NCBI RefSeq assembly: GCF_003712195.1
Contig: NZ_RDSD01000001.1
Span: 310,001-374,000 of the forward strand
Source of the DNA: Proteiniphilum sp. X52
GTDB taxonomy: Bacteria; Bacteroidota; Bacteroidia; Bacteroidales; Dysgonomonadaceae
Direction of reading: 5' to 3'
DNA: 64,000 nucleotides
The translations under genes and the position numbers were made by a program. The notes under the pieces were generated by a model. The model made no database searches, was not told the origin of the DNA, and saw only the letters and a program-made list of their open reading frames with translations. This document shows, in pieces, positions 17,973 to 31,076 of this stretch (the first letter of the stretch is position 1; every line of letters starts with the position of its first letter).

Positions 17973-18944
17973 CTAATACCTCCTGTCCCGCATGGAGATG
18001 GATGCCGTGCCGGATGAAGTTGCCGGGGATCTTCTTTTGCCCCGAGGGTTTACTTTCTGGCGTTGAGGGACAACAGGGTGGCTTTCCTGCTTCCAGAGAT
18101 TCTTTTCGAAATCGATCAGTTCCTGTTCTATTCTTGCCTGTTCAGCCTTCATTTCTTCGGGAGTGGAGGTGTACTGCGAGAGGGCAAGGTTCCGCGGATT
18201 CTGTGCTTTGTAGATCTCCCCGTCATACTTTCTCATACGGAAAAAATCATCAATGCTACCGTTCATACTGTTATTAAACGACGAGCCCATGAGCGGTACT
18301 CGTCGCGCGTAAGGGGCTATTTCATCGTAAGAGATCCAGAATAAAGGATAGCGTGTGGCGGCACCATAATCGTCCCGGCGCTGCAAGACAGGGCAAATGG
18401 CGAGCGGTCTCACCCTGAAAGCGGAATTGCCCGTGTCGAAATAATAGGCCTCTTTCACGAAATAACCTTCTACCTCATTGCCGGGAATATCGACGTCATT
18501 GACCATGATCTTCCCCTCGGCGGTTTCATAATAGATTCCGAACCGGTCCAGCAATTCCTGAAAATCTATCCGGTACTCATCGGTAAACTCTTCCCGTCCG
18601 TCCAGATATTCATAAGCCACAACGGCATCTTCCCGCAATAGATTGAATAGCATGGTAAACAGGCTCATCTTCCCATCTACAGGGGTGACCGGGTAATAGA
18701 GCGGGGCATTGGCCTCTGTGGTAAGGTCGAGATAACGGTAGATGATACGCGACCATTTGGCGTTTTTTATCTGTTCGTCGCTGTGACGATCCGGTTGCCC
18801 CATGCGGATACTCGTGCCGGTAGCCTTTTGTTGCACAGCGCTTTGCCGACGTCGTTCTATTCTTTCCCTCGCTGTCTCTTGGGCAGAAAGGGTAGCAACC
18901 CCTACCGTCAACAGAATGAATATGAGTAATCGTTTTGTTTGCAT
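17973..18944 (-). CDS. gldN: T9SS component GldN/PorN
   Basis: Periplasmic partner of the GldK ring in type IX secretion. 323 residues with a Sec signal peptide (KRLLIFILLTVGVATLSAQ). The body has the conserved family pattern: VIYRYLDL-type segment (WSRIIYRYLDLTTEAN), YPLFWISYDEIAP, GSSFNNSMNGSIDDFFRMRKYDGEIYK split across residues 225-255. The tail beyond about residue 270 is charged and low-complexity. It is last in the porP-gldK-gldL-gldM-gldN order, 137 bp after gldM. Confidence 0.92.
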   Translation of the reverse strand: MQTKRLLIFILLTVGVATLSAQETARERIERRRQSAVQQKATGTSIRMGQPDRHSDEQIKNAKWSRIIYRYLDLTTEANAPLYYPVTPVDGKMSLFTMLFNLLREDAVVAYEYLDGREEFTDEYRIDFQELLDRFGIYYETAEGKIMVNDVDIPGNEVEGYFVKEAYYFDTGNSAFRVRPLAICPVLQRRDDYGAATRYPLFWISYDEIAPYARRVPLMGSSFNNSMNGSIDDFFRMRKYDGEIYKAQNPRNLALSQYTSTPEEMKAEQARIEQELIDFEKNLWKQESHPVVPQRQKVNPRGKRRSPATSSGTASISMRDRRY

Positions 18945-19081
18945 ATTTCTTTATTTGGAATCAAGATTCAAGAACCAAGACTATAAGATTTGACAATGTC
19001 GATTTGCAATTCAATGCTGATTTCACAATTTCAACATTTCACAATTCCTGATTCAATACTTCATTTTCAACGTTCAATTTT

Positions 19082-20632
19082 TCATTGGACTCTTACCTCC
19101 ATCACCGCGATCTCCCGCTCAATACCATCAGGGCCGACCGCGCGTACGCCCGAAATATAGAAATAACTGCCTCGCGCAAGACGTCTGATCTGCTCTTTCT
19201 GCCTATCAGAGAAACGGTTCCCATCGGAAACTTCGGGAATGGCATTTCCCATGGAGTCGAAGAAGACGGTACGGAAACTGATCACCCGGAACGGAATGGA
19301 CAGGATGCCGTCGTCGATGGCTGCCTTGATCCCGCCGGCATTCATTAAAGCCGCTTTCTGGAATCCGCCTCCCCTGAACATCACCGGATTTCCGTTCGCG
19401 TCATTGTATTCAATGTATGGAGTGGGATCGGGGAGTGCGCGTACCCTGAACTCTTTGACAGCCACCCGCCGAACCTCTCCACCGGCGGTACGGGCCGATA
19501 CCGATATGGTGACATCCTGTCCTATGGCCGAGGGACGGGCAATCCACATATTCCCCCGACGGCTGAGGGTGCCGTGGGTGATAGTCGCACTGACATCCTG
19601 CGGAGCGATACCGGGTACGGAAATGCCGATCTCGTTGTCGATGCCGGCATACAATACATTCATCAGGGTGGGGGCGACGGTGGCGATCGGTTCAATCACG
19701 GTGTAGCTGGCCGCAAACGGGCGACGGGTCACGCTACCCTCACTGCCGGCCATTTCCAAATACCCTTCTACAGGGAATGTTCCAGTACGGTCGGCCCGCA
19801 CAGAAAAGGATCCGTTTTCTTTTCTATCGAGAATCTCGCCGTTGACCATGATAAGCGGTTGCCGGGTAGAGTCTTCTGCCGAGAGTACAATACGGGCATT
19901 ATAGGAACCGCCTTGGATGACGATATCGGACTCGGGGATGATATAAGCATTCAGCCGGTTTACACGAAAATCGCCAATATCCACATTGTGCAGAATATTG
20001 GAGAGTGCTTCCCCTTCCGATGAGCGGATATCATTCTCTATCTTGGTAAGCATGGTGATAGCTGCGGACAGCGGCATTTGTTCAAAAAGAGAGGCTTCCC
20101 AGCTTTTGTTGGCCGATCGTGGTTGTGTGCTGAGATTTTTTTCGATGATTGCCCGGCGGGCGGGATCTGTCACGAGTCGCGTTACTGAGTCGCGGTAGGT
20201 ATCGATTGCGTTCCTGAATTTTCTTCCTTCACCATTTACGGGGGAGAGCATGACCACCGAGGCGGCTTCCAGATCGTCTTTGTGTTTGATGTGATTGATA
20301 TCTGCTTTTCTTCCGTCGGCTTCACGCGCCATACGCAGTTTCAGTTCTCCAATATATCTTGTCAGCGAATCGCTCATGGCGCGCACCTGCACCCCTTTCC
20401 GGAACCACTCACCGGCCTTTTCCGGGTTCTGCGCATGGTAGGCCGTTAATTCGTCCATGATCAGCCTGTTGCGTTCCAGCATCGTGCCGGATGAATCTCC
20501 CAGGCTATTATCCACCATTTCGAACCCGTCGAGCACTTCGACCGATACGTTCAACGCCAGCATTGCAATGAATACCAGGTACATCAGGTTGATCATTTTC
20601 TGACGGGGCGAATTGGGACTGTTGACTGCCAT
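19082..20632 (-). CDS. gldM: T9SS/gliding motor component GldM/PorM
   Basis: Inner-membrane-anchored rod that spans the periplasm and couples the GldL motor to the GldK-GldN ring. 516 residues. It opens with SPRQKMINLMYLVFIAMLALNVS, one transmembrane helix at about 12-35, then SVEVLDGFEMVDNSL typical of GldM. The rest is a long chain of periplasmic Ig-like domains with IVIQGGSYNARIVLSAED and IEYNDANGNPVMFRGG. It lies 8 bp after gldL, so cotranslation is likely. The start MAVNSPNSPRQK agrees with family N-termini. Confidence 0.95.
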   Translation of the reverse strand: MAVNSPNSPRQKMINLMYLVFIAMLALNVSVEVLDGFEMVDNSLGDSSGTMLERNRLIMDELTAYHAQNPEKAGEWFRKGVQVRAMSDSLTRYIGELKLRMAREADGRKADINHIKHKDDLEAASVVMLSPVNGEGRKFRNAIDTYRDSVTRLVTDPARRAIIEKNLSTQPRSANKSWEASLFEQMPLSAAITMLTKIENDIRSSEGEALSNILHNVDIGDFRVNRLNAYIIPESDIVIQGGSYNARIVLSAEDSTRQPLIMVNGEILDRKENGSFSVRADRTGTFPVEGYLEMAGSEGSVTRRPFAASYTVIEPIATVAPTLMNVLYAGIDNEIGISVPGIAPQDVSATITHGTLSRRGNMWIARPSAIGQDVTISVSARTAGGEVRRVAVKEFRVRALPDPTPYIEYNDANGNPVMFRGGGFQKAALMNAGGIKAAIDDGILSIPFRVISFRTVFFDSMGNAIPEVSDGNRFSDRQKEQIRRLARGSYFYISGVRAVGPDGIEREIAVMEVRVQ

Positions 20633-20640
20633 GGATGGGA

Positions 20641-21399
20641 TTATATGTTGGGGTTACCGGAATTGTTCTGTTTGCTCACTGTCATAGCCTTCAGCATGCG
20701 CCCATAGACTTCGTTCAGTTCCCTGAGCTGATCCGCCATTTTCTCTGTTTCCGCTTTAATAACTGATCCGTCGGGAAGTGTGTCGCCATACATGGTTCTG
20801 AGGCGGGCCAGCCCCTGATTGATCTGCTCGATAGCGCCGATCTGGCTGCTGACACTTTTGAGCTGTATCTCGTAGATGGAGTTGAGTCCTGACAATGTGC
20901 GATTAAGGTTTTCCATCTGTTTGCCGTACTCTTCGGTGTGTGCCGAGAGGTTGTGAGGGATTTCATACCCCGGTTCGCCGGCAGAGGTCGATAAGTTTGT
21001 ATGTGAGGCTGCGGTTGCTCCGGATGGGGTTGACATAGCATTTTGCGCGACGGGACCGGAAATGATTTCGCGTGACATTACAGTTGTCTGTTGAGGCATC
21101 CCGGTATTAAGTTGGGGGCTATCTCCGTTTTCGGAATTGCCGGAAAGAGCAGGGAATACCTGTTCCCAGTTATAATCCCGTATCGGCGTGTCGAATGCAG
21201 AAACGATAAAGACAATGCATTCGGTGACCATCCCGATAAAGAGCATCTCATTGCCGAAGGGAAAATGAAGCAGTTTGAACATCGCACCGAGGATCACTAT
21301 GGCCGCCCCGAAACTATAAGCAAAGTTGATGAACCGTTTTCCCCGCTCGGTCTGCAGGAAGCGTTCGAGACTATTTTTATATTTTTTGTAAGCGTTCAT
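20641..21399 (-). CDS. gldL: T9SS/gliding motor component GldL/PorL
   Basis: Inner-membrane proton-driven motor subunit. 252 residues. Two closely spaced transmembrane helices at about residues 22-65 (FINFAYSFGAAIVILGAMFK, then LFIGMVTECIVFIVSAFD), with a conserved Glu in the second helix as expected of GldL. The remainder is cytoplasmic, with a coiled-coil-like stretch at about 150-240 (LNRTLSGLNSIYEIQLKS, LRELNEVYGRMLKAM). The gap of 163 bp to gldK is filled with heptamer repeats that come within about 12 bp of the ATG. Confidence 0.94.
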   Translation of the reverse strand: MNAYKKYKNSLERFLQTERGKRFINFAYSFGAAIVILGAMFKLLHFPFGNEMLFIGMVTECIVFIVSAFDTPIRDYNWEQVFPALSGNSENGDSPQLNTGMPQQTTVMSREIISGPVAQNAMSTPSGATAASHTNLSTSAGEPGYEIPHNLSAHTEEYGKQMENLNRTLSGLNSIYEIQLKSVSSQIGAIEQINQGLARLRTMYGDTLPDGSVIKAETEKMADQLRELNEVYGRMLKAMTVSKQNNSGNPNI

Positions 21400-21410
21400 T
21401 CTTTTTCTTT

Positions 21411-21530
21411 TAGAAGTTTGAAGTTTAGAAGTTTGAAGTTTGGAATTTGGAATTTGGAACTTAGAACTTAGAACTTGGAACTTGGAACTTAGAACTTAGA
21501 ACTTAGAACTTGGAACTTAGAACTTGGAAA
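21411..21530 (-). repeat. Heptamer array (A/C)AGTTC(C/T) upstream of gldL
   Basis: Read in the sense of gldL this is a run of about 15 degenerate 7-bp units, mostly AAGTTCT and AAGTTCC, filling the gldK-gldL gap and stopping about 12 bp before the gldL ATG. The same word in the same sense precedes fmt and serC. Confidence 0.75.
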
Positions 21531-21562
21531 GTTCTTAATTTTTCACTCTTTGTTCATATAAT

Positions 21563-22981
21563 TTATTTTCCCGCACTGACCTGCGTCCTTACGCAACGGA
21601 ATCCGATATAGGAACGTCCGCGGTTCTGGTGTTCGCTGTCGCGCATATCCGACCGGATAAAGGTGGAGATATCTTTCCATGAGCCTCCTTTCACTACTTT
21701 TCGTTTCAATGCATAAGGGTCTTCGGTAGTGGCATTATAGCTGTATTCCGGGTTCAGGTCACCCATCAGTTCATTCCCCGACTCGGTGTAGGCGGTAGAA
21801 GTCCATTCCGCCACATTCCCGGCCATATCATACAAGCCTGAGTTGTTGGGTTTGAAACTCCTCACTTTGGCGGGGATAAGGTGGTTATCGGCTCCATAGG
21901 CTCCGTCGCCCGGCTTGAAATTGGCCTGGAAACAGCCGCTTTCACTTGTTGTGGCGTCGGAATCCCACGGGTATCGGTTGTCGGAATTGGCATTTCGTGC
22001 CGCCATTTCCCATTCCGCTTCGGTGGGGAGACGGTATTTTTCTATCGTCACCCCTTGTCTGTTAATACTCCTGCGCAGAAAGAGGGTGCGCCACTCGCAG
22101 AAGGCGGTCGCCTGTTCCCATGAGACACCTACTACCGGATGGTGCGCATAGGCGGGATGGGAAAAGTAATGGCGTAAATAGCGCTCGTTGTCGGCGTTCG
22201 GAAAATCGTTCACCCAGCAGGTGGTATCGGGGTATATATTGACGATCCGCGTGTGCACGAAATCGTATAGGCTGCTAAGCGGGCGGGTGACGGTCTCGTT
22301 GACAATCCGCCCGTCGGAAGCAATATATGCGGTATCTTTCGATATCATGATCACTTCGTTGGGATCGATGGCCATGTCGCTATTGAATGTCCTCTCTGCG
22401 GGGTTCAGCCGGTGCTGTCGTCTGGCCGCTTCCGCGGCATCAAACCACTCGTAACGAAAATTCATCTGGCGGGCATCCAGCATTTTTTCTCCTGTGATGG
22501 GATGTGTGGTATACACACTGTTGATAGCAGCCTCTTCCTCTTCGGTATTTCTTGTCCAGGGGATGGGAATCCTCCAGTTCAGGCGGGGGGTGACAGGATC
22601 ACCGTATTCATCCTCGGTGATCTTGTAAAAGTCATCGCCGGCGTAGGCCGGGTCTGCCAGCCGTTCTCGGATGATGGAATCCCGTACCCAGTAAACAAAC
22701 TGTTTGTATTGGGAGTTCGTGATCTCCGTCTCATCCATCCAGAAATTGTCTACCGACACGCCGCGGGTAGGTATCGAGAATCCCCAAAGCGAATCGATCT
22801 CTCCCGGCCCCATGATATAAGTTCCCCGTGACACCAGTACCATATTGTATGGTGTGGGTTCCACCCACACTTTGCCCACGGGGATGCCGGTCAGTTCACC
22901 GCCGATACTGCTCCCGATCCCCCGTCTGCCACAAGAGACGATCACTATCAGTAACAGCCCAAGTAAGATATATCTCCTCAT
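21563..22981 (-). CDS. gldK: T9SS lipoprotein GldK/PorK
   Basis: Outer-membrane lipoprotein that forms the periplasmic ring with GldN. 472 residues. Lipoprotein signal MRRYILLGLLLIVIVSCG with the lipidated Cys at about residue 17. From about residue 45 a formylglycine-generating-enzyme (SUMF1) fold: MVLVSRGTYIMG, DNFWMDETEITNSQYKQFV, PVVGVSWEQATAFCEWR, RLPTEAEWEMAARN, GLYDMAGNVAEWTSTA and the terminal GGSWKD and YIGFRCVR. The long insert near 100-260 is usual for GldK. The ATG at 22981 is used; the frame opens at a TTG at 22990 inside a TAATTGG word. Confidence 0.94.
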   Translation of the reverse strand: MRRYILLGLLLIVIVSCGRRGIGSSIGGELTGIPVGKVWVEPTPYNMVLVSRGTYIMGPGEIDSLWGFSIPTRGVSVDNFWMDETEITNSQYKQFVYWVRDSIIRERLADPAYAGDDFYKITEDEYGDPVTPRLNWRIPIPWTRNTEEEEAAINSVYTTHPITGEKMLDARQMNFRYEWFDAAEAARRQHRLNPAERTFNSDMAIDPNEVIMISKDTAYIASDGRIVNETVTRPLSSLYDFVHTRIVNIYPDTTCWVNDFPNADNERYLRHYFSHPAYAHHPVVGVSWEQATAFCEWRTLFLRRSINRQGVTIEKYRLPTEAEWEMAARNANSDNRYPWDSDATTSESGCFQANFKPGDGAYGADNHLIPAKVRSFKPNNSGLYDMAGNVAEWTSTAYTESGNELMGDLNPEYSYNATTEDPYALKRKVVKGGSWKDISTFIRSDMRDSEHQNRGRSYIGFRCVRTQVSAGK

Positions 22982-23146
22982 AATTACCAATTAAAAATTG
23001 AGCCTGCTCCGAAAACCCCAAAACACCATTTTTTTAGTTTGCAAATTGCTGAAAATCAAGAGTTTTTTGGTATTTTCACCAAAAAAGACGTTTCGGGTGG
23101 GAACTCAAAATCAAAAGTGAAAAATTAAAAATTAGCGCCAATCGTC

Positions 23147-23401: not shown

Positions 23402-24376
23402 CTATAAAAGCCGGATGCTCTTATGCGGTTGCCGCTTGGGTTTGAAATGATCGAGCGGGAAATTATATCGGAGGTAGAGCTCATGACTCCCCCTGCTATT
23501 TTGTCCGATTCCCTTGGTATGCGATCCGTAGGCATATCCCAACTCTACTTCACGGATGGTAGTTCCGGCAAAAAGCAGATATCCGTCGTTCATCCTCCAT
23601 GATATACCGCCTGATAATTTTTTATTGTATTCGAGGCGAAGGGTAGCCTGCACTTGTAACCTGCTGAGGTCGGTCTGAACCCACAACATCGGTTGTATTT
23701 CTAACGTATGAAAGAGAGTAATATTGTATCCGGCCATCAAATTACAGGAAAGGGGAATAGCCGACAACGTAGAGTCGGTTTGAAGATCAGCTCCCAGAGA
23801 GTCATTATGGACATAAAACCGGGGTTGATTGAGATGTATTGCCGACAGACCTATGAAAACAGATTTCCCTGTCCAGGAGATGCCGGCGCTCAGGTCGATC
23901 ACCTGTTTGTCGGCGGGGGCCACTTTCAGCGTCCCCCGCCCATGTTGTAATGAATCTTGAAAAATATATTTGCTTCCCGCGTCGAAATTCAAGTCATGCA
24001 CCCCGGCTTGTAGCCCCATATTCAGACAGCCTTTACCGAACTCTTTTTTGAAACTGTATTGTACTGCCAGCAATGAGTTACTCAGTTGGCCTACGGTTTC
24101 ATTATTCATCACCAGTCCGACGCCGTGGCGTCTGCCGAAAAATTCAAAGGGCATATCGGCGGTAAGGATAACTTGTTGAGGTGCATTTGCTATGCCTCTC
24201 CATCCATAACGGTAAAAGGCGGTGGTGCTGATCGCCTCTGTATCACCCGCAAACGAGGAATTGAGATAACTCTTCACGGCCCAGTATTGACCGGGCGGGT
24301 CATCCCACTGTGCCTGCAGATGTGACAGGCTGCACAGCGACAGGAGTATGGTTAATAATAAGCACCGTTTTTCCAT
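23402..24376 (-). CDS. porP: T9SS outer-membrane protein PorP/SprF family
   Basis: Predicted outer-membrane beta-barrel of type IX secretion that links the translocon or surface adhesins to the periplasmic ring. 324 residues from ATG 24376, with signal peptide KRCLLLTILLSLCSLSHLQAQ. PorP/SprF features follow: WDDPPGQYWAVKSYLNSSFAG, FYRYGWRGI near 50-65, RRHGVGLVMNNETVG, LLAVQYSFKKE, and amphipathic strands to the end (HELYLRYNFPL). The frame extends 35 codons upstream into the VOC gene, but the signal peptide fixes the start. It lies 53 bp after the VOC gene and leads into gldK. Confidence 0.88.
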   Translation of the reverse strand: MEKRCLLLTILLSLCSLSHLQAQWDDPPGQYWAVKSYLNSSFAGDTEAISTTAFYRYGWRGIANAPQQVILTADMPFEFFGRRHGVGLVMNNETVGQLSNSLLAVQYSFKKEFGKGCLNMGLQAGVHDLNFDAGSKYIFQDSLQHGRGTLKVAPADKQVIDLSAGISWTGKSVFIGLSAIHLNQPRFYVHNDSLGADLQTDSTLSAIPLSCNLMAGYNITLFHTLEIQPMLWVQTDLSRLQVQATLRLEYNKKLSGGISWRMNDGYLLFAGTTIREVELGYAYGSHTKGIGQNSRGSHELYLRYNFPLDHFKPKRQPHKSIRLL

Positions 24377-24429: not shown

Positions 24430-25524
24430 TTATATCTTGGAGGATTTTACCCGCATAAGCCGGAGCATCCCGAGCATCCACCTCGGAAGCGGTTTTTCGG
24501 GATCCCTGTTTTTCAGGTTTAGGCTTAGGCCCAATTTTTTTGCGATTGGTATTTTGTGTGTTTCCACAAATTCGATCAACGTGCCGTCCGGATCTTCAAT
24601 ATATGCAAATTGTCCTGCGGCGTCACCCATGTCGAAGGAGCTGCCTTCCTTGATATTTTGTGTGGTATCTACCGTAAAGGGATGCCCCGACTCAGCGCAC
24701 TTTTTGCGTAATGCATCCATATTCCGGATATCGAAGCAAACCTGAATAAAGCCGGGGTCACCCCAGAAACGCCCTTGGTAAAGTTTTCTCGGGGTGTGTT
24801 CCAGTGCCTGTACCAGTTCTATATAGGATGGACCGAACAGTTCACTAAGGCTTCCTTTTCTGGGTTGTGAGTGTGTCAGCAAACGGCGACGGAATTTTTG
24901 TGTGCCTGCAGGCAATCCTTCGAAATCGGGAAAAACGCCTGTCTCGTCTGCGATAATCTTATCGTAACCCAGAATATCACAATATACTGTCATCGCTTTA
25001 TCGATATCAGTCACGCCGATAGTTACGCCAACCGCACCGCCTGTCGACTTCCCTTCGTCTTTAAAAATGTAATTGTCCTCTACGATTTGAAACAGATTTT
25101 CATATGGGTCTTTCACATAAAAAGTCTGATTTCCGTCGATATTTTTGTTGAGTCCGCCGAGGAAATAAGCTTTCGGATTTTTGGAAAATTCTTCGAACGT
25201 GCGGCTCACGTCCCTGCTTTTGACTTTGCAGACCAAAACACCCAGATCGCCCATATTCAATGTGAAGTCAAGCGGTTTTGGTTTCCTTTGTGAGTATTGC
25301 CACACTTCAAAACCGCCGCCACCCTGCATATTAACAGCAATCAGCGCATGGCGCTGTTGTGGATTTCCACCCGTGTAGGGTAGCATCAGTTCGGCAACTT
25401 TATCGTCCTCAAGGATACGAATATCCATATTGAACAGGTCAATATAGTATTTCCATGCTTCATACAGTTTTTCTACTCCGATACCTACCTGTTGGATCCC
25501 TGCAATGATATAGTTCTCTTTCAT
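24430..25524 (-). CDS. VOC-superfamily protein with two glyoxalase-like modules, function unknown
   Basis: 364 residues, no signal peptide. Two vicinal-oxygen-chelate modules: the first about residues 7-165 (QQVGIGVEKLYEAWKYYIDL to ENLFQIVEDNY), the second about 180-330 (GVTIGVTDIDKAMTVYCDIL to DPDGTLIEFVETHKIP). The layout resembles 4-hydroxyphenylpyruvate dioxygenase, but the usual first-strand His ligand is Gln or Val in both modules and the HPPD C-terminal motif is absent, so HPPD activity is unlikely. Glu residues in FEVWQ, YIELVQ and IEFVE could still hold a metal. It starts 4 bp after the SDR stop, so it belongs to the same operon as the probable sulfonolipid genes; its role there is unknown. 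The ATG at 25524 is used, not the frame opening at 25590. Confidence 0.75.
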   Translation of the reverse strand: MKENYIIAGIQQVGIGVEKLYEAWKYYIDLFNMDIRILEDDKVAELMLPYTGGNPQQRHALIAVNMQGGGGFEVWQYSQRKPKPLDFTLNMGDLGVLVCKVKSRDVSRTFEEFSKNPKAYFLGGLNKNIDGNQTFYVKDPYENLFQIVEDNYIFKDEGKSTGGAVGVTIGVTDIDKAMTVYCDILGYDKIIADETGVFPDFEGLPAGTQKFRRRLLTHSQPRKGSLSELFGPSYIELVQALEHTPRKLYQGRFWGDPGFIQVCFDIRNMDALRKKCAESGHPFTVDTTQNIKEGSSFDMGDAAGQFAYIEDPDGTLIEFVETHKIPIAKKLGLSLNLKNRDPEKPLPRWMLGMLRLMRVKSSKI

Positions 25525-25528
25525 ATAG

Positions 25529-26323
25529 TTATGTGGCTTTGATCTTTCTGACCATTTTTCTTGCCAGTCCGGGAAAAAAACGCTTGACATATACCATCAG
25601 TAACTCTTTCCCTCCGACGAACACCTCAGGTTCCTGTTTATCAATGGCCTTCACGATTTTCTTTGCTGCTTTCTCCGCGGAGATGCCGTTGTTCTGCCCG
25701 TGATCCATTTGTCCGTGTTTGCTGCCATCGGCTTCTAACGCATTGAAGGAGATGCTTGTCTTTATCCTTCCGGGACAGACCATCACTACCCGGATATTCC
25801 GGTGGTAGTACTCCGCGTGAAGGGTTTCGAAAAAACCATAGAGGGCAAATTTGGATGAAGCATAGGCTGATCGCAGAGGAAAGCCGAATTTCCCTGAGAT
25901 GCTGGTGGTGACAGCGATGGTTCCTCCGCCTTTTTTAATCATGTCAGGTAATAGCCGTTTACTGATCTTTACCGGTGCAAAGAAGTTCACAGCCATGATC
26001 TTTTCATCTACCTTGCCGTCTGTTTCTAGTATTTTGGAGCGTTGACTGATACCGGCATTCAGAAATGCGATGTCGATCCCCCCGAAAGTCATTATGGCTT
26101 TATCGGTCAACTCGTCGATATGTGCCAGATCGGACAGGTCATATGGTAATATTACGCATTGTGCACCAAGCCGGATGCACTCTGCCCGCACCTCCGCCAA
26201 CCTGCCGGCCCGTGTAGCCGTAAGGATCAGGTTGACTCCCTGCCGCGCGTAGAGATAAGTACATGCTTCACCGATACCCGACGAAGCACCTGTAATCCAT
26301 ATGGTTTTGTTATTAATTACCAA
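25529..26323 (-). CDS. SDR-family oxidoreductase (candidate 3-ketocapnine reductase)
   Basis: Classical short-chain dehydrogenase, 264 residues: cofactor motif TGASSGIG near residue 11, NAGIS, catalytic Ser in VTTSISGKFG and YASSK with the Tyr-Lys pair. The C-terminal FPGLARKMVRKI is basic and hydrophobic, as in lipid-linked SDRs like 3-ketodihydrosphingosine reductase. In this operon the natural role is reduction of the 3-keto group made by the upstream acyltransferase; that is inference. A stop codon directly precedes the only usable start, a TTG at 26323, which lies in a TAATTGG repeat word. Confidence 0.8.
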   Translation of the reverse strand: MVINNKTIWITGASSGIGEACTYLYARQGVNLILTATRAGRLAEVRAECIRLGAQCVILPYDLSDLAHIDELTDKAIMTFGGIDIAFLNAGISQRSKILETDGKVDEKIMAVNFFAPVKISKRLLPDMIKKGGGTIAVTTSISGKFGFPLRSAYASSKFALYGFFETLHAEYYHRNIRVVMVCPGRIKTSISFNALEADGSKHGQMDHGQNNGISAEKAAKKIVKAIDKQEPEVFVGGKELLMVYVKRFFPGLARKMVRKIKAT

Positions 26324-26456
26324 TTACTAATTATTAATTACCTGTTATTAATTGCGATTTTTGTTTTTTTCTTTCCTATAATCAGTGCATTAACTAATCA
26401 GCGCATCAGCAAATCATCGCCACATCAGCCTGATCACCATTCCACCTTTTCTTCAA

Positions 26457-27788
26457 TCAGTCGCGCATCACCTCATTCCAGAGTTGTGATCGGTAATCGT
26501 CTATGGAGTGGGGGGCACATTCATCCACATTATATACATTATGGGAGGTATAGATCATCTGCTCCAGGAAATAGGGGGCGCGATTGGGGCCTTCTCCTAT
26601 ATTGAGCAGCACTGTCTCTCCGTTTTTGATGAGGTTTTTCCTGAGTGCGACGAAGAATCCGGCGATAGAAACGGCAGATGCCGGTCCAGGGATTACTTTC
26701 TGCTCATAGGCGGTCAGTTTACCTACGGACACCAGTTTTTTTTCACGCATCCGCAGGAAGCTGCCCCCTGACTCTTTTACCAATCTTGCTACGATAGGGT
26801 AGGTCGCAGGATTTCCTGTTGCCAGGGTAGGAACTTCTGTCTGAGGATTGTCAATAATAGGATATTTCTTCTCAAAACCTACGGGAAATCCGACGGCTTC
26901 AGCCTCTTCCCACGCCTGCACCATCGGGTCGCACCCGTCTGTCTGTACCAGAAGGAAGCGGGGATTTTTCAATTCAGGATAGACCTGTTTAATCTCGCGG
27001 ATACCTTTGTCTATAGCGATGGGGCCTGTGCCGCCACTGACTGCCTGGATATACACATCAGGAAACTTGTCCATCTGGCGAAGCCATTCGAAGACCATTG
27101 TCTTCTTTGCTTCCACACGGATAGGATCGATGTTGCCGGTCGATATCGGAATATTGTGCAGTCTGGCATATCCCGCTGCAATTTCCTTTGCTTTGGCATA
27201 GTCGCCCATCACACGGAAAACCTGTTGCCCGTAAGAACTGATAGTGGCTTCTGATGTTTTGATAGCGTCTTCCGGCATGAATACGGAACAATTTACCTTT
27301 GCCAGGGAAAGATATTTGGCATAAGCCGTGGCCGAATTACCGGTGGAAGCAATACAATACTGATGGATGCCGATCTCGTTGAACAGGCTGGCTGCCAACG
27401 AAGCAGCAATATCCTTAAATGTCCCTGTACCTCCGTTCAGGTCATTCCTGTAGACATGAACATTGAGATCGAGCCCGTACTTCTCCTTCGCAAACTCTTC
27501 GAGGAATGTCCACTGTTCTACGGGAATGGCGCCTTCACCTTTCGAGATGATATGCCTTTTGCGTAATAGCGGGAGAAAAGGGAAATAATGCCAGAAACTG
27601 TTAGGGTTGCGGCGTCCGATAAGTCGCGGTAACCGCTGATAAGGTCGGTTGTACCACACTTCGGAATGTTTGCTTCCGCACTTCGGGCATTGTTGATCCT
27701 GTTCGAACCATGTCCAGAAGTTGGGAGTGACATGCCCACAGCCGGTACAGGCTAAATGGTACTTATGCTGAATTTTTATGCGAAGCAT
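26457..27788 (-). CDS. PLP-dependent threonine-synthase-like enzyme, probable cysteate synthase
   Basis: 443 residues. An N-terminal zinc ribbon (CTGCGH and CPKCGS, residues 14-40) precedes a fold-type II PLP domain with the cofactor lysine in GTGTFKDIAAS (Lys125), the phosphate loop ASTGNSATAYAKYL and SGGTGPIAIDKG. The family is close to threonine synthase, but no other threonine-pathway gene is here and the neighbours are an AOS-type acyltransferase and an SDR. Cysteate synthases that supply sulfonolipid synthesis in Bacteroidetes are described as threonine-synthase relatives, so conversion of phosphoserine and sulfite to cysteate is the favoured function. It starts 8 bp after the acyltransferase gene. 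Confidence 0.72.
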   Translation of the reverse strand: MLRIKIQHKYHLACTGCGHVTPNFWTWFEQDQQCPKCGSKHSEVWYNRPYQRLPRLIGRRNPNSFWHYFPFLPLLRKRHIISKGEGAIPVEQWTFLEEFAKEKYGLDLNVHVYRNDLNGGTGTFKDIAASLAASLFNEIGIHQYCIASTGNSATAYAKYLSLAKVNCSVFMPEDAIKTSEATISSYGQQVFRVMGDYAKAKEIAAGYARLHNIPISTGNIDPIRVEAKKTMVFEWLRQMDKFPDVYIQAVSGGTGPIAIDKGIREIKQVYPELKNPRFLLVQTDGCDPMVQAWEEAEAVGFPVGFEKKYPIIDNPQTEVPTLATGNPATYPIVARLVKESGGSFLRMREKKLVSVGKLTAYEQKVIPGPASAVSIAGFFVALRKNLIKNGETVLLNIGEGPNRAPYFLEQMIYTSHNVYNVDECAPHSIDDYRSQLWNEVMRD

Positions 27789-27796
27789 TTTCCTTT

Positions 27797-29059
27797 TTAT
27801 GTGGTGGACATCGATTTCATCTCGTCAGCCATATATTTTCCCGCTTCGAGATTAACCTTTATCTTTTTGAATACCTCAATGGTCTCATCCACATCCTTCT
27901 GTGTATGAGAGGCCGTGGGGATCAGTCTGAGCATTAATACTCCTTTAGGTACCACCGGATATACCACGATGGAGCAGAAAACATTATGATTCTCACGCAG
28001 ATCGATTACAATATTGGTGCCTTCGGGGACGGAGCCGCTGAAATAGACGGGGGTCACCGGTGATTGCGTATTGCCGATATTGAATCCTTCGGCCACCAGT
28101 CCTTCTTGCAACGACTTGGCGATTTTCCACAGCTTTTCTTTATATTGGGGCTGTGTCTGTAATATTTCGAGGCGTTTTAATGCGCCGATCACCATGGGCA
28201 TAGGAAGTGATTTGGCAAAGATCTGGGAGCGCATATTGTATTTCAATGAATGGACGATCGCTTTTTCAGAAGCGACAAAAGCCCCTATACCGGCCATTGA
28301 TTTGGCGAAGGTGCCAAAATAGATGTCCACTTCGTCCATCAATCCGAAATGTTCGCTTGTACCCGCTCCGGAGTCCCCCATGGTGCCAAATCCGTGTGCA
28401 TCATCGATCATCAGGCGGAAATTATATTTTTCTCTGAATTTAACGATTTCGGGAAGATTGCCCAAATCGCCCGACATACCGAATACTCCTTCGGTAATCA
28501 CCAGGATACCACCGCCTGTCTCTTCTGCTTTTCTGGTAGCGAAACCAAGCATCTTGTCACATCTCTCCATATCGTTGTGGGGAAATACAAAACTCTTTCC
28601 ACCCTTGGCTTTATGCAGAAAAATACCATCCATGATACAAGCATGGGATTCGGAATCGTAAACGATAACATCATTCCTTGAGACCAGAGAATCAATGATA
28701 GAAACCATTCCCTGATAACCGTAATTCAGCAGATAGGCAGCCTCCTTTTTCTCGTAGGCAGCGAGTTTTTCCTCCAGCTCTTTGTGATATTTTGTTTGTC
28801 CCGACATCATACGCGCACCCATAGGATATGCCATACCCCAGTCGGCCGCGGCTTTCGCGTCCGATTCACGCACTTCAGGGTGGTTGGCCAATCCCAGATA
28901 ATTGTTCAGACTCCAGGTGATCACCTCTTTACCGAGAAACCTCATTCTGGGACCTATCTCACCTTCCAGTTCGGGAAAGATAAAATATCCTTCCGCTTTC
29001 TTGCGATACTGTTCAAGCGGACCTTCGGCACTTTTCAGCCGGTCGAAAATATCTGTCAC
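27797..29059 (-). CDS. AOS-family PLP acyltransferase, probable cysteate fatty-acyltransferase
   Basis: 420-residue alpha-oxoamine synthase (kin of KBL, BioF and serine palmitoyltransferase). Features: TWSLNNYLGLANHPEV, GARMMSGQTKYH, LNYGYQGM, IDDAHGFGTMGDSGAG with the cofactor-stacking His, and the PLP lysine in FGTFAKSMAGIG (Lys253). The N-terminus MTDIFDRLKSAEGPL and the long body match the Bacteroidetes subgroup reported to condense cysteate with a fatty acyl thioester to 3-ketocapnine. The start is GTG at 29059. It is first in the operon, about 50 nt downstream of a -7 box. Generic annotation would be aminotransferase or BioF-like. Confidence 0.78.
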   Translation of the reverse strand: MTDIFDRLKSAEGPLEQYRKKAEGYFIFPELEGEIGPRMRFLGKEVITWSLNNYLGLANHPEVRESDAKAAADWGMAYPMGARMMSGQTKYHKELEEKLAAYEKKEAAYLLNYGYQGMVSIIDSLVSRNDVIVYDSESHACIMDGIFLHKAKGGKSFVFPHNDMERCDKMLGFATRKAEETGGGILVITEGVFGMSGDLGNLPEIVKFREKYNFRLMIDDAHGFGTMGDSGAGTSEHFGLMDEVDIYFGTFAKSMAGIGAFVASEKAIVHSLKYNMRSQIFAKSLPMPMVIGALKRLEILQTQPQYKEKLWKIAKSLQEGLVAEGFNIGNTQSPVTPVYFSGSVPEGTNIVIDLRENHNVFCSIVVYPVVPKGVLMLRLIPTASHTQKDVDETIEVFKKIKVNLEAGKYMADEMKSMSTT

Positions 29060-29118
29060 GATTGTATATGATTGGTTTGATTTTCCTTGATAAAAAGGAA
29101 CCGATTCCCTTTTAGGTG

Positions 29119-29126
29119 CAAAAATA
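29119..29126 (-). promoter_or_regulatory. -7 box for the probable sulfonolipid operon
   Basis: The reverse strand reads TATTTTTGC, a full TAnnTTTG match, placing the start near 29112 and giving a leader of about 50 nt. A small hairpin (TTCCTT/AAGGAA, near 29085-29102) lies inside that leader. Confidence 0.5.
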
Positions 29127-29281: not shown

Positions 29282-29521
29282 CTACTGCTGTTTATGTATC
29301 TCTACGAAATCTGCGTCCTCGATTTCGCTCGACTCGAATTTCTTTTTCTGATACTCAATGATCCGATCTTGTTGGTTCTCAGGTTGTCTGGCCTGTTGTG
29401 CCCGTGGCTGCCGGGAGTTTGAAGTCTGTGTGCCACGCTTTCCCAAGAGAAAGGCTGCGACTGTTTTCAGCAGAAAATAGACAACCATAAAACCCAGAAA
29501 AAATTTAATCAGGAATCCCAT
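29282..29521 (-). CDS. DUF4834 family small membrane protein
   Basis: 79 residues: one transmembrane helix (about 3-28, FLIKFFLGFMVVYFLLKTVA), a basic polar linker rich in Gln, Arg and Pro, and an acidic end with SSEIEDADFVEI, the pattern typical of DUF4834. Such proteins are common in Bacteroidales and have no known function. It stands between pssA and the probable sulfonolipid operon on the same strand, with gaps of 172 and 222 bp. Confidence 0.8.
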   Translation of the reverse strand: MGFLIKFFLGFMVVYFLLKTVAAFLLGKRGTQTSNSRQPRAQQARQPENQQDRIIEYQKKKFESSEIEDADFVEIHKQQ

Positions 29522-29693: not shown

Positions 29694-30389
29694 TCAGCGA
29701 CGTGGCACTGAAACGGAAAGAATGACATAGGCCACGATCCCCCAGGCCATGCCGCTGATGCCCAGCAGTACCACCAGCAGTACCATCAGGATGAGCAGGA
29801 TAACCTGCCTCTCATTTCCTTTGAACGCCAATTTTTTGATTTTCAATGAGAACATCGGTATTTCGGAGACCATCAATAACGACATGAGGACGATCAATCC
29901 GGCGGTTAGATAGAAGGAGTTTTCATTTTGGGTTGCTATTTCAGTCATTCCGGAGCAGTAGCTAATCCAGAATAGTCCGTTGGCGGGAGTGGGCAGGCCT
30001 ATAAATGAGGTGGTTTGTCGTTCGTCGACATTGAATTTGGCCAGCCGGTATGCGGAAAAAACAGGGATAAGGAATGCCAGATATGGGATCCAGATGTGCA
30101 GTGATTCCAGATAACCTGGCAGTAAGGCGTAATCCCGAAGTAGTATGAAAACTGCCGCTGCGGGAGCAGTGCCGAAACTGACCACATCTGCCAAGGAATC
30201 CAGCTCTTTGCCCAAAGGGGAATAAGCATTTAGGCGCCGTGCCGCCATGCCATCCAGGAAATCGAACAGGGCGGCGATTGCAACCCCTATCACTACCGCT
30301 TTAAAGTTGCCCTGAAACGCCATGACAATGGCTATGCATCCGGAGAAGAGATTCAACAAAGTCAGGATATTGGGTATCTGTTTGCGCAT
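29694..30389 (-). CDS. pssA: CDP-diacylglycerol-serine O-phosphatidyltransferase
   Basis: Integral membrane enzyme that makes phosphatidylserine from CDP-diacylglycerol and serine. 231 residues with about six to eight helices. The CDP-alcohol phosphotransferase motif is complete: DG at residues 45-46, AR three residues on, then the spaced G, D and D ending in LDSLADVVSFG. The N-terminus IPNILTLLNLFSGCIAIVMA is typical. It follows psd by 6 bp on the same strand, so the pair psd-pssA makes phosphatidylethanolamine from one transcript. Confidence 0.95.
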   Translation of the reverse strand: MRKQIPNILTLLNLFSGCIAIVMAFQGNFKAVVIGVAIAALFDFLDGMAARRLNAYSPLGKELDSLADVVSFGTAPAAAVFILLRDYALLPGYLESLHIWIPYLAFLIPVFSAYRLAKFNVDERQTTSFIGLPTPANGLFWISYCSGMTEIATQNENSFYLTAGLIVLMSLLMVSEIPMFSLKIKKLAFKGNERQVILLILMVLLVVLLGISGMAWGIVAYVILSVSVPRR

Positions 30390-30395
30390 AGTCCG

Positions 30396-31076
30396 TTATC
30401 CTTCCTTTTGGGGGAGCCTTGCCAAAAAGGTGACATTGGCATGCACTTCTTCTCCCAGGTCGACCAATATTTCACTGTCCGGCGGCAGGAAAATATCCAT
30501 TCGGGAACCCAGTTTGATGAAACCCAATGGCGCCCCAATATGTACTTCATCACCCTCTTTCACATAGGTGATCACTCTTCTTGCCATTGCCCCGGCGATT
30601 TGTTTGGTGAGTATTGTGCCATGGTCGGGCGTCTCTATCAAAATATTGGTATGTTCATTTTCATGGCTCGCTTTGGGCAGGTATGCGGCATGAAAATTTC
30701 CCTCTATATGGGAGAAATGGGTGATTTTGCCGGTGACCGGTATCCAATTGGAGTGAGCATTAAAGAATGACATGAAGATAGAAATCTGAATACGTTCGTC
30801 ATGAAAGAACTCTTTTTCGAATACTTTTTCTATGGTTACAATTTTACCGTCTGTAGGTGCGTTTACCAATCCGTGCAGATCGCCTTTATAGGCGCGATCA
30901 GGGTGTCTGTAAAAGTTGATCGCCATGGCATATAACAAAAATGACAAAAGGGCCAGGAAGAAGGTGAATATTGTACCGGGAAGCAGGATCAGGAAAACTG
31001 CATTGAGAAGGATAAGTACAACTCCTATTTTTATCAAAGCCGATTTACCTTCTTTATGTATTCGTAATTGTTTCAT
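30396..31076 (-). CDS. psd: Phosphatidylserine decarboxylase
   Basis: Converts phosphatidylserine to phosphatidylethanolamine. 226 residues, the short form. One or two helices at about 17-55 anchor it. Family signatures are FYRHPDR, SFFNAHSNWIPVTGKI and HENEHTN, with the self-cleavage site LGSRMDIFLP, where the chain should split between Gly and Ser to create the pyruvoyl group. It lies directly upstream of pssA. A perfect 16-bp palindrome sits 18 bp upstream of the ATG and could be an operator. Confidence 0.95.
   Translation of the reverse strand: MKQLRIHKEGKSALIKIGVVLILLNAVFLILLPGTIFTFFLALLSFLLYAMAINFYRHPDRAYKGDLHGLVNAPTDGKIVTIEKVFEKEFFHDERIQISIFMSFFNAHSNWIPVTGKITHFSHIEGNFHAAYLPKASHENEHTNILIETPDHGTILTKQIAGAMARRVITYVKEGDEVHIGAPLGFIKLGSRMDIFLPPDSEILVDLGEEVHANVTFLARLPQKEG

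Follow-up and report, generated by a model that had tools for sequence, protein, structure and literature searches.

A probable capnine operon in Proteiniphilum sp. X52 with a candidate third class of cysteate synthase

Among the membrane lipids of Bacteroidota, from the gut as well as from the environment, are the bioactive sulfonolipids. The stretch analysed here, hereafter the window, comprises 64,000 nucleotides of the genome of Proteiniphilum sp. X52 (contig NZ_RDSD01000001.1, positions 310,001 to 374,000), and coordinates below are positions within it. On its minus strand, genes follow each other in the order psd, pssA, AOS, ThrC-like, SDR, VOC, porP, gldK, gldL, gldM and gldN. The four genes from AOS to VOC (24430-29059) form an operon flanked by psd-pssA on one side and by porP-gldKLMN, genes of the type IX secretion system (T9SS), on the other. 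This operon is predicted to make capnine, the sulfonolipid base, with a probability of about 0.87; the figure leaves the VOC step aside, and all activities are deduced from sequence. Its members, two of which depend on pyridoxal phosphate (PLP), are as follows.

27797-29059, minus strand: SulA/CapB-type cysteate fatty acyltransferase of the AOS family, predicted by phmmer (PLP lysine K253; K283 equivalent to SulA K281)
26457-27788, minus strand: PLP enzyme with a zinc ribbon, candidate cysteate synthase of a third class (PLP lysine K125; NCBIfam scores, tree, co-occurrence and neighbours)
25529-26323, minus strand: SDR, probable 3-ketocapnine reductase (Y154, K158; 218.6 bits against NF004825, cut-off 215)
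24430-25524, minus strand: two-domain VOC protein, proposed isomerase or epimerase (ligand pattern Q11, E72, H/Q260, which is Q in the window protein, and E317)

Spacing is 8 bp between the AOS and ThrC-like genes, 133 bp between the ThrC-like gene and the SDR, 4 bp between the SDR and the likely VOC start, and 53 bp between VOC and porP. The true VOC start is probably 25524 and not 25590, because homologs begin near residue 23 (MKENY..) of the listed open reading frame (ORF). The initial annotation of this locus had given the four ORFs in this order, and we found the motifs that it had read in them (FGTFAKSM with Lys253, GTGTFKD, TGASSGIG and YASSK), as well as the VOC end at 24430, the 53 bp gap to the porP ATG at 24376 and pssA-psd on the far side of the operon (pssA exceeds its TIGR00473 cut-off, while the position of psd follows the name in that annotation).

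In the proposed pathway, the ThrC-like enzyme would convert O-phosphoserine and sulfite to L-cysteate, the SulA ortholog would turn cysteate and acyl-ACP (acyl carrier protein) into 3-ketocapnine and CO2, and the SDR would reduce 3-ketocapnine to capnine with NAD(P)H. The VOC protein would be a metal-dependent proton-transfer enzyme of the glyoxalase I/epimerase type acting on an intermediate, its simplest role being C2 epimerisation of 3-ketocapnine ahead of reduction, and N-acylation would be performed by genes elsewhere. We assign the operon to sulfonolipid synthesis, as had been proposed, because its acyltransferase is orthologous to SulA, an enzyme that is not ThrC stands where other clusters have a known cysteate synthase, several related clusters contain sulfite-forming genes, and an SDR is present. 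Thus, the initial interpretation is strongly supported in its sulfonolipid part, whereas its other part, a concrete link to T9SS and gliding, did not hold (see the last section).

Literature excerpts report a pathway of three to four steps and cysteate synthases of two kinds. An operon with the whole pathway points to a third cysteate synthase, a VOC partner and candidate sulfite modules, and two of the four enzymes (ThrC-like and VOC) seem to be pathway components that had gone unrecognised. It is possible, though rather doubtful, that these elements make up one unrecognised form of sulfonolipid synthesis, with a third class of cysteate synthase, a VOC isomerase setting C2 (or acting on another intermediate) before the SDR, and a heterodisulfide reductase (Hdr)-like sulfite supply in many relatives. 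A literature search, with sources available in part and subscription journals mostly outside its coverage, returned no report joining sulfonolipids with glyoxalase, heterodisulfide reductase, type IX secretion or Proteiniphilum.

The acyltransferase and the candidate cysteate synthase

The AOS protein is an ortholog of SulA/cysteate fatty acyltransferase, with predicted activity on cysteate and acyl-ACP. In phmmer comparisons it scores 584 bits against SulA of Alistipes finegoldii (PDB 7u7h), aligned over residues 1-410, and 563 bits against 28eh, a chain named cysteate-C-fatty acyltransferase, but only 251 bits against serine palmitoyltransferase (SPT) 3a2b. It belongs to the AOS fold family, with the PLP lysine (K253) in place, and its K283 aligns with SulA Lys281, a residue which is alanine in SPT and may serve to tell sulfonolipid from sphingolipid enzymes (excerpt of PMC9304779). 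The A-K-S-L-P motif was found in 33 of 37 AOS sequences and not in the other 4. On the bit scores and K283 we rejected an SPT identity and kept the protein with the cysteate acyltransferases, as initially annotated; it is hardly credible that the operon is of sphingolipid type or encodes a KBL/BioF enzyme, since the SPT model NF047600, although the top NCBIfam match by E-value, reaches 301 bits, far under its cut-off of 640.

Orthology over residues 1-410, the PLP lysine and the K281 equivalent are shared with SulA/CapB/CFAT (A. finegoldii alfi_1224, Flavobacterium johnsoniae Fjoh_2419 and C. ochracea CapB), from which the window gene differs in sharing an operon with the other pathway steps. 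In A. finegoldii and C. gleum, by comparison, the reductase genes lie away from cfat and Cys, according to excerpts of PMC11211663. Across 247 genomes of the order, the AOS gene is present in 175 (E <= 1e-100).

Two cysteate routes in Bacteroidota are given in excerpts of PMC10191378, namely CapA and, in Alistipes and Odoribacter, a homologue of the archaeal enzyme; CapABC (Liu 2022) is cited in PMC12927429 and PMC10191378. The ThrC-like protein scores 90 bits against threonine synthase TIGR00260 (cut-off 167.1) and 100.4 bits against the archaeal-type cysteate synthase TIGR03844 (cut-off 324.9), and CapA (NF053679, cut-off 600) is not among the 16 NCBIfam families matching it at E <= 0.001. 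NF053679 has a sole match at E <= 1e-20 in the whole genome, namely CysK, whose 254 bits stay below the cut-off, and a separate true ThrC is encoded elsewhere (301.6 bits against TIGR00260). A tree of 80 sequences groups the 24 window-type proteins in one clade (99/99) and the 34 TIGR03844-type proteins in another (100/100), the two joining with 99/96 support on a long stem with unsettled bootstrap. Thus, the protein stands apart from true threonine synthases, in agreement with the distinction drawn at the outset. The two types have in common a QAV.sGTG.IA loop, which none of 19 other ThrC-like proteins showed (this comparison excludes L317, a divergent row, and two rows from the window's own genome).

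The two types also exclude each other. Among the 247 genomes, the window type occurs in 47 and the TIGR03844 type in 66 (65 above the cut-off and a partial one with 312 bits). No genome has both, and at the family level one of 62 families has both. The AOS gene accompanies them in 40 of the 47 and 62 of the 66 genomes, respectively. Moreover, they interchange within clusters: two loci read VOC-AOS-CAP, where CAP is the TIGR03844-type gene, and another reads VOC-AOS-THRC-SDR. CysH sits between THRC and AOS in three loci, and three others carry a run of CysH, CysD, CysN, permease and CysQ with THRC at its end (the domains are PAPS_reduct, GTP_EFTU, permease and Inositol_P; CysD was named by reading its sequence). 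Such sulfate-assimilation neighbours fit a sulfite-using enzyme.

We therefore read the ThrC-like enzyme as a candidate third kind of cysteate synthase, which would use phosphoserine and sulfite. Its resemblance to the archaeal type lies in the ThrC superfamily, the loop and the interchangeable place in clusters; it differs in its score (100 against a cut-off of 325), in its separate clade and in keeping the zinc-ribbon cysteines. With CapA of Capnocytophaga, CysK-like by its score against CysK, it shares the proposed reaction but not the PLP subfamily. It is quite unlikely that the gene encodes instead a threonine synthase, or a PLP lyase unrelated to cysteate. The top PDB matches of the protein are indeed threonine synthases (about 90 bits), with 9k3c the sole cysteate synthase chain listed (27.6 bits), and zinc-ribbon cysteines and FKD are common to other ThrC-like proteins; the scores under the ThrC cut-offs, the true ThrC elsewhere, the exclusion of and interchange with the TIGR03844 type, and CysH and the related neighbours all speak for a cysteate synthase.

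Six genomes have VOC and the ThrC-like gene with no AOS match at E <= 1e-100, presumably through assembly gaps or a diverged AOS. Conversely, both the window-type and the TIGR03844-type synthase are missing from 73 of the 175 AOS genomes. CapA was considered as the synthase of these genomes and rejected: in a survey of 48 of the 73 genomes together with 16 THRC and 16 TIGR03844 genomes, none of the 80 reaches the cut-off, the best score being 351 bits.

Two candidate sulfite modules go together with AOS. CysH or an Hdr-like B subunit is found in 159 of the 175 AOS genomes and in 20 of the 72 genomes devoid of AOS; the B subunit alone is found in 77 of the 247 genomes, 72 of which have AOS. As a side observation, 18 of 80 VOC loci have an Hdr-like B subunit, within an iron-sulfur module near VOC composed of an HdrC-like protein, an HdrB-like CCG protein, an FAD subunit, a small ferredoxin and a membrane CCG protein; AOS, THRC or CAP also occurs in part of these loci. 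The module may feed sulfite to the cysteate synthase, because the Hdr-like system of Hyphomicrobium oxidises sulfane sulfur to sulfite (excerpt of PMC10451225).

The reductase and its VOC partner

The SDR exceeds the NF004825 cut-off, and its catalytic Y154 and K158 are present in 24 of 24 sequences; it is a probable 3-ketocapnine reductase. Like CapC/KCR, it is a classical SDR with Tyr and Lys; unlike them, it is encoded together with a VOC partner. This linkage recurs, as an SDR lies within 400 bp of VOC in 53 of the 80 VOC loci. The initial annotation was right about the presence of a VOC protein and gave it no role, yet this is the least expected part of the operon.

Metal ligands of the glyoxalase I/epimerase type are Q or H, E or Q, H, and E, whereas the Fe(II) dioxygenases of the VOC superfamily use a 2-His-1-carboxylate triad. 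Residue numbers start at K24 of the listed ORF; Q11, E72, Q260 and E317 correspond to Q34, E95, Q283 and E340 there. We used 101 distinct sequences rather than 106, after removing contigs fetched twice (six pairs of loci share a contig). Q11 and E72 are present in all 101, E317 in 100 with one gap, and residue 260 is H in 56 and Q in 45, including the window protein. This pattern, Gln-Glu-His/Gln-Glu in paired modules, is one of sequence, with strands placed by a structure model (predicted local distance difference test score, pLDDT, 92.2); it resembles that of glyoxalase I and methylmalonyl-CoA epimerase, unlike that of dioxygenases, and predicts metal binding. A weak profile match (E 0.0014) to the methylmalonyl-CoA epimerase of M. 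tuberculosis places Q11 on its first-strand His. No PDB sequence matched the window protein at E <= 0.1. Besides the ligands, the fold is shared with glyoxalase I and methylmalonyl-CoA epimerase, from which the window protein differs in having four modules per chain (as in maize glyoxalase I) and no close sequence match.

We propose that the VOC protein is an isomerase or epimerase which would act on 3-ketocapnine, the substrate being the weakest step of the pathway. A role in tailoring the lipid, as an Fe(II) dioxygenase or hydroxylase dependent on O2, is improbable: the first His of the triad is Gln in 101 of 101 sequences and the second is Gln in 45, even though the nearest VOC folds include dioxygenases as well as glyoxalases.

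This last point is one of several that weigh against the proposed pathway. VOC is present in only 75 of the 175 AOS genomes, and the pathway therefore does not require it in every organism. Sequence does not reveal the specificity of an SDR: according to excerpts of PMC11211663, only 3 of 12 candidates of one species were active. For the synthase, the stem of the TIGR03844-type clade is long (5.2) in the 80-sequence tree, its bootstrap being unsettled as noted; the Fisher p-values for mutual exclusion (8e-8 across genomes, 3e-4 across families) overstate significance, as the genomes are related; and 7 of the 47 window-type genomes have no AOS match (E <= 1e-100). The window genome itself has the whole operon and no match to CysH (E <= 1e-40) or to the Hdr-like B subunit (E <= 1e-60). 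Finally, in one genome of the window's family (G249), AOS and THRC lie 1.3 kb apart, with no SDR or VOC match in the 10 kb stretch retrieved.

A PlsC-like acyltransferase gene, named by reading its sequence, was also seen in 14 of the 80 VOC loci. It precedes SDR-VOC in 11 of them, lies elsewhere in the locus in three, and could provide an acylation step.

Position beside the type IX secretion genes

The neighbours of the operon and a possible promoter element are as follows.

17973-22990, minus strand: gldK, gldL, gldM and gldN, T9SS core (TIGR03525, TIGR03513, TIGR03517 and TIGR03523, each over its cut-off)
23402-24376, minus strand: porP (T9SS), start ATG at 24376, a neighbour and not an operon member (PF11751; TIGR03519 over its cut-off)
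29119-29126, minus strand: possible Bacteroidetes -7 box TATTTTTG, by eye
29694-30389, minus strand: pssA, upstream neighbour (TIGR00473)
30396-31076, minus strand: psd, upstream neighbour (named in the initial annotation; synteny in relatives)

PorP, GldK, GldL, GldM and GldN all exceed their NCBIfam cut-offs, and the locus thus does hold the T9SS core. The order psd-pssA-AOS-THRC-SDR-VOC-porP-gldK is found in five relatives (Proteiniphilum, Fermentimonas and metagenome-assembled genomes, one of them on the same contig as a family genome of our survey). Of the 81 genomes of the window's family, 30 have AOS. In 21 of these, AOS and GldK are on one contig, and they are 3.7 to 11.6 kb apart in every case; in six others the two genes lie on different contigs, and no GldK match (E <= 1e-80) was obtained in three (G249, G250 and G314). 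In the order-wide sample of 247 genomes, the three other family members have no AOS. Uniqueness of the adjacency to this genome is thus rejected: it recurs within the family, and was seen in that lineage only, as no GldK match occurs in 36 AOS loci that were taken from other families and span 3.9 to 20 kb.

Other loci separate the two sets of genes. The AOS-THRC-SDR-VOC row stands free of adjoining T9SS genes in seven loci, and in three more VOC and porP are separated by 1.9 to 7.1 kb. Among 11 loci from family genomes devoid of AOS, four (one from the same genus) have psd-pssA and porP-gldK at a distance of 0.67-5.9 kb from each other without the operon, and the other seven show porP-gldK, with pssA unmatched in the stretch retrieved. 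Conversely, the G250 genome (89% complete) carries the whole operon without a GldK match.

The adjacency is therefore lineage-specific synteny with presence-absence of the lipid operon, and not evidence of coupling to gliding or T9SS. The initial annotation had suggested that it would give a concrete link between the lipid genes and these functions; the absence of GldK from all 36 loci of other families, the flanking blocks without the operon and the G250 locus mean that position gives no such link. Functional coupling of sulfonolipid synthesis and T9SS, with adjacency under selection, is unlikely. Arguments for it are the adjacency in all 21 testable family genomes and a modest co-occurrence, GldK being found in 167 of the 175 AOS genomes versus 62 of the 72 without AOS (p 0.015). 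In addition, sulfonolipids are reportedly needed for efficient gliding in F. johnsoniae, going by a title alone. The adjacency was, however, seen in one family only, four relatives keep the flanking block without the operon, three family AOS genomes have no GldK match, and VOC and porP can be kilobases apart. As a lineage feature, it is unfit as evidence for a link between the lipids and secretion.

The promoter box first reported ahead of the operon stood in part. TATTTTTG, read from 29126 to 29119, fits TAnnTTTG, which we take to be the Bacteroidetes -7 box consensus, but it is weak: the two-box promoter pattern has no match at 29119-29126, and the three that it has elsewhere in the window are about as many as chance would give. 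Finally, a small ORF of about 79 codons (29282-29521, minus strand), which by eye begins MGFLIKFFLGF, lies between pssA and the AOS gene.

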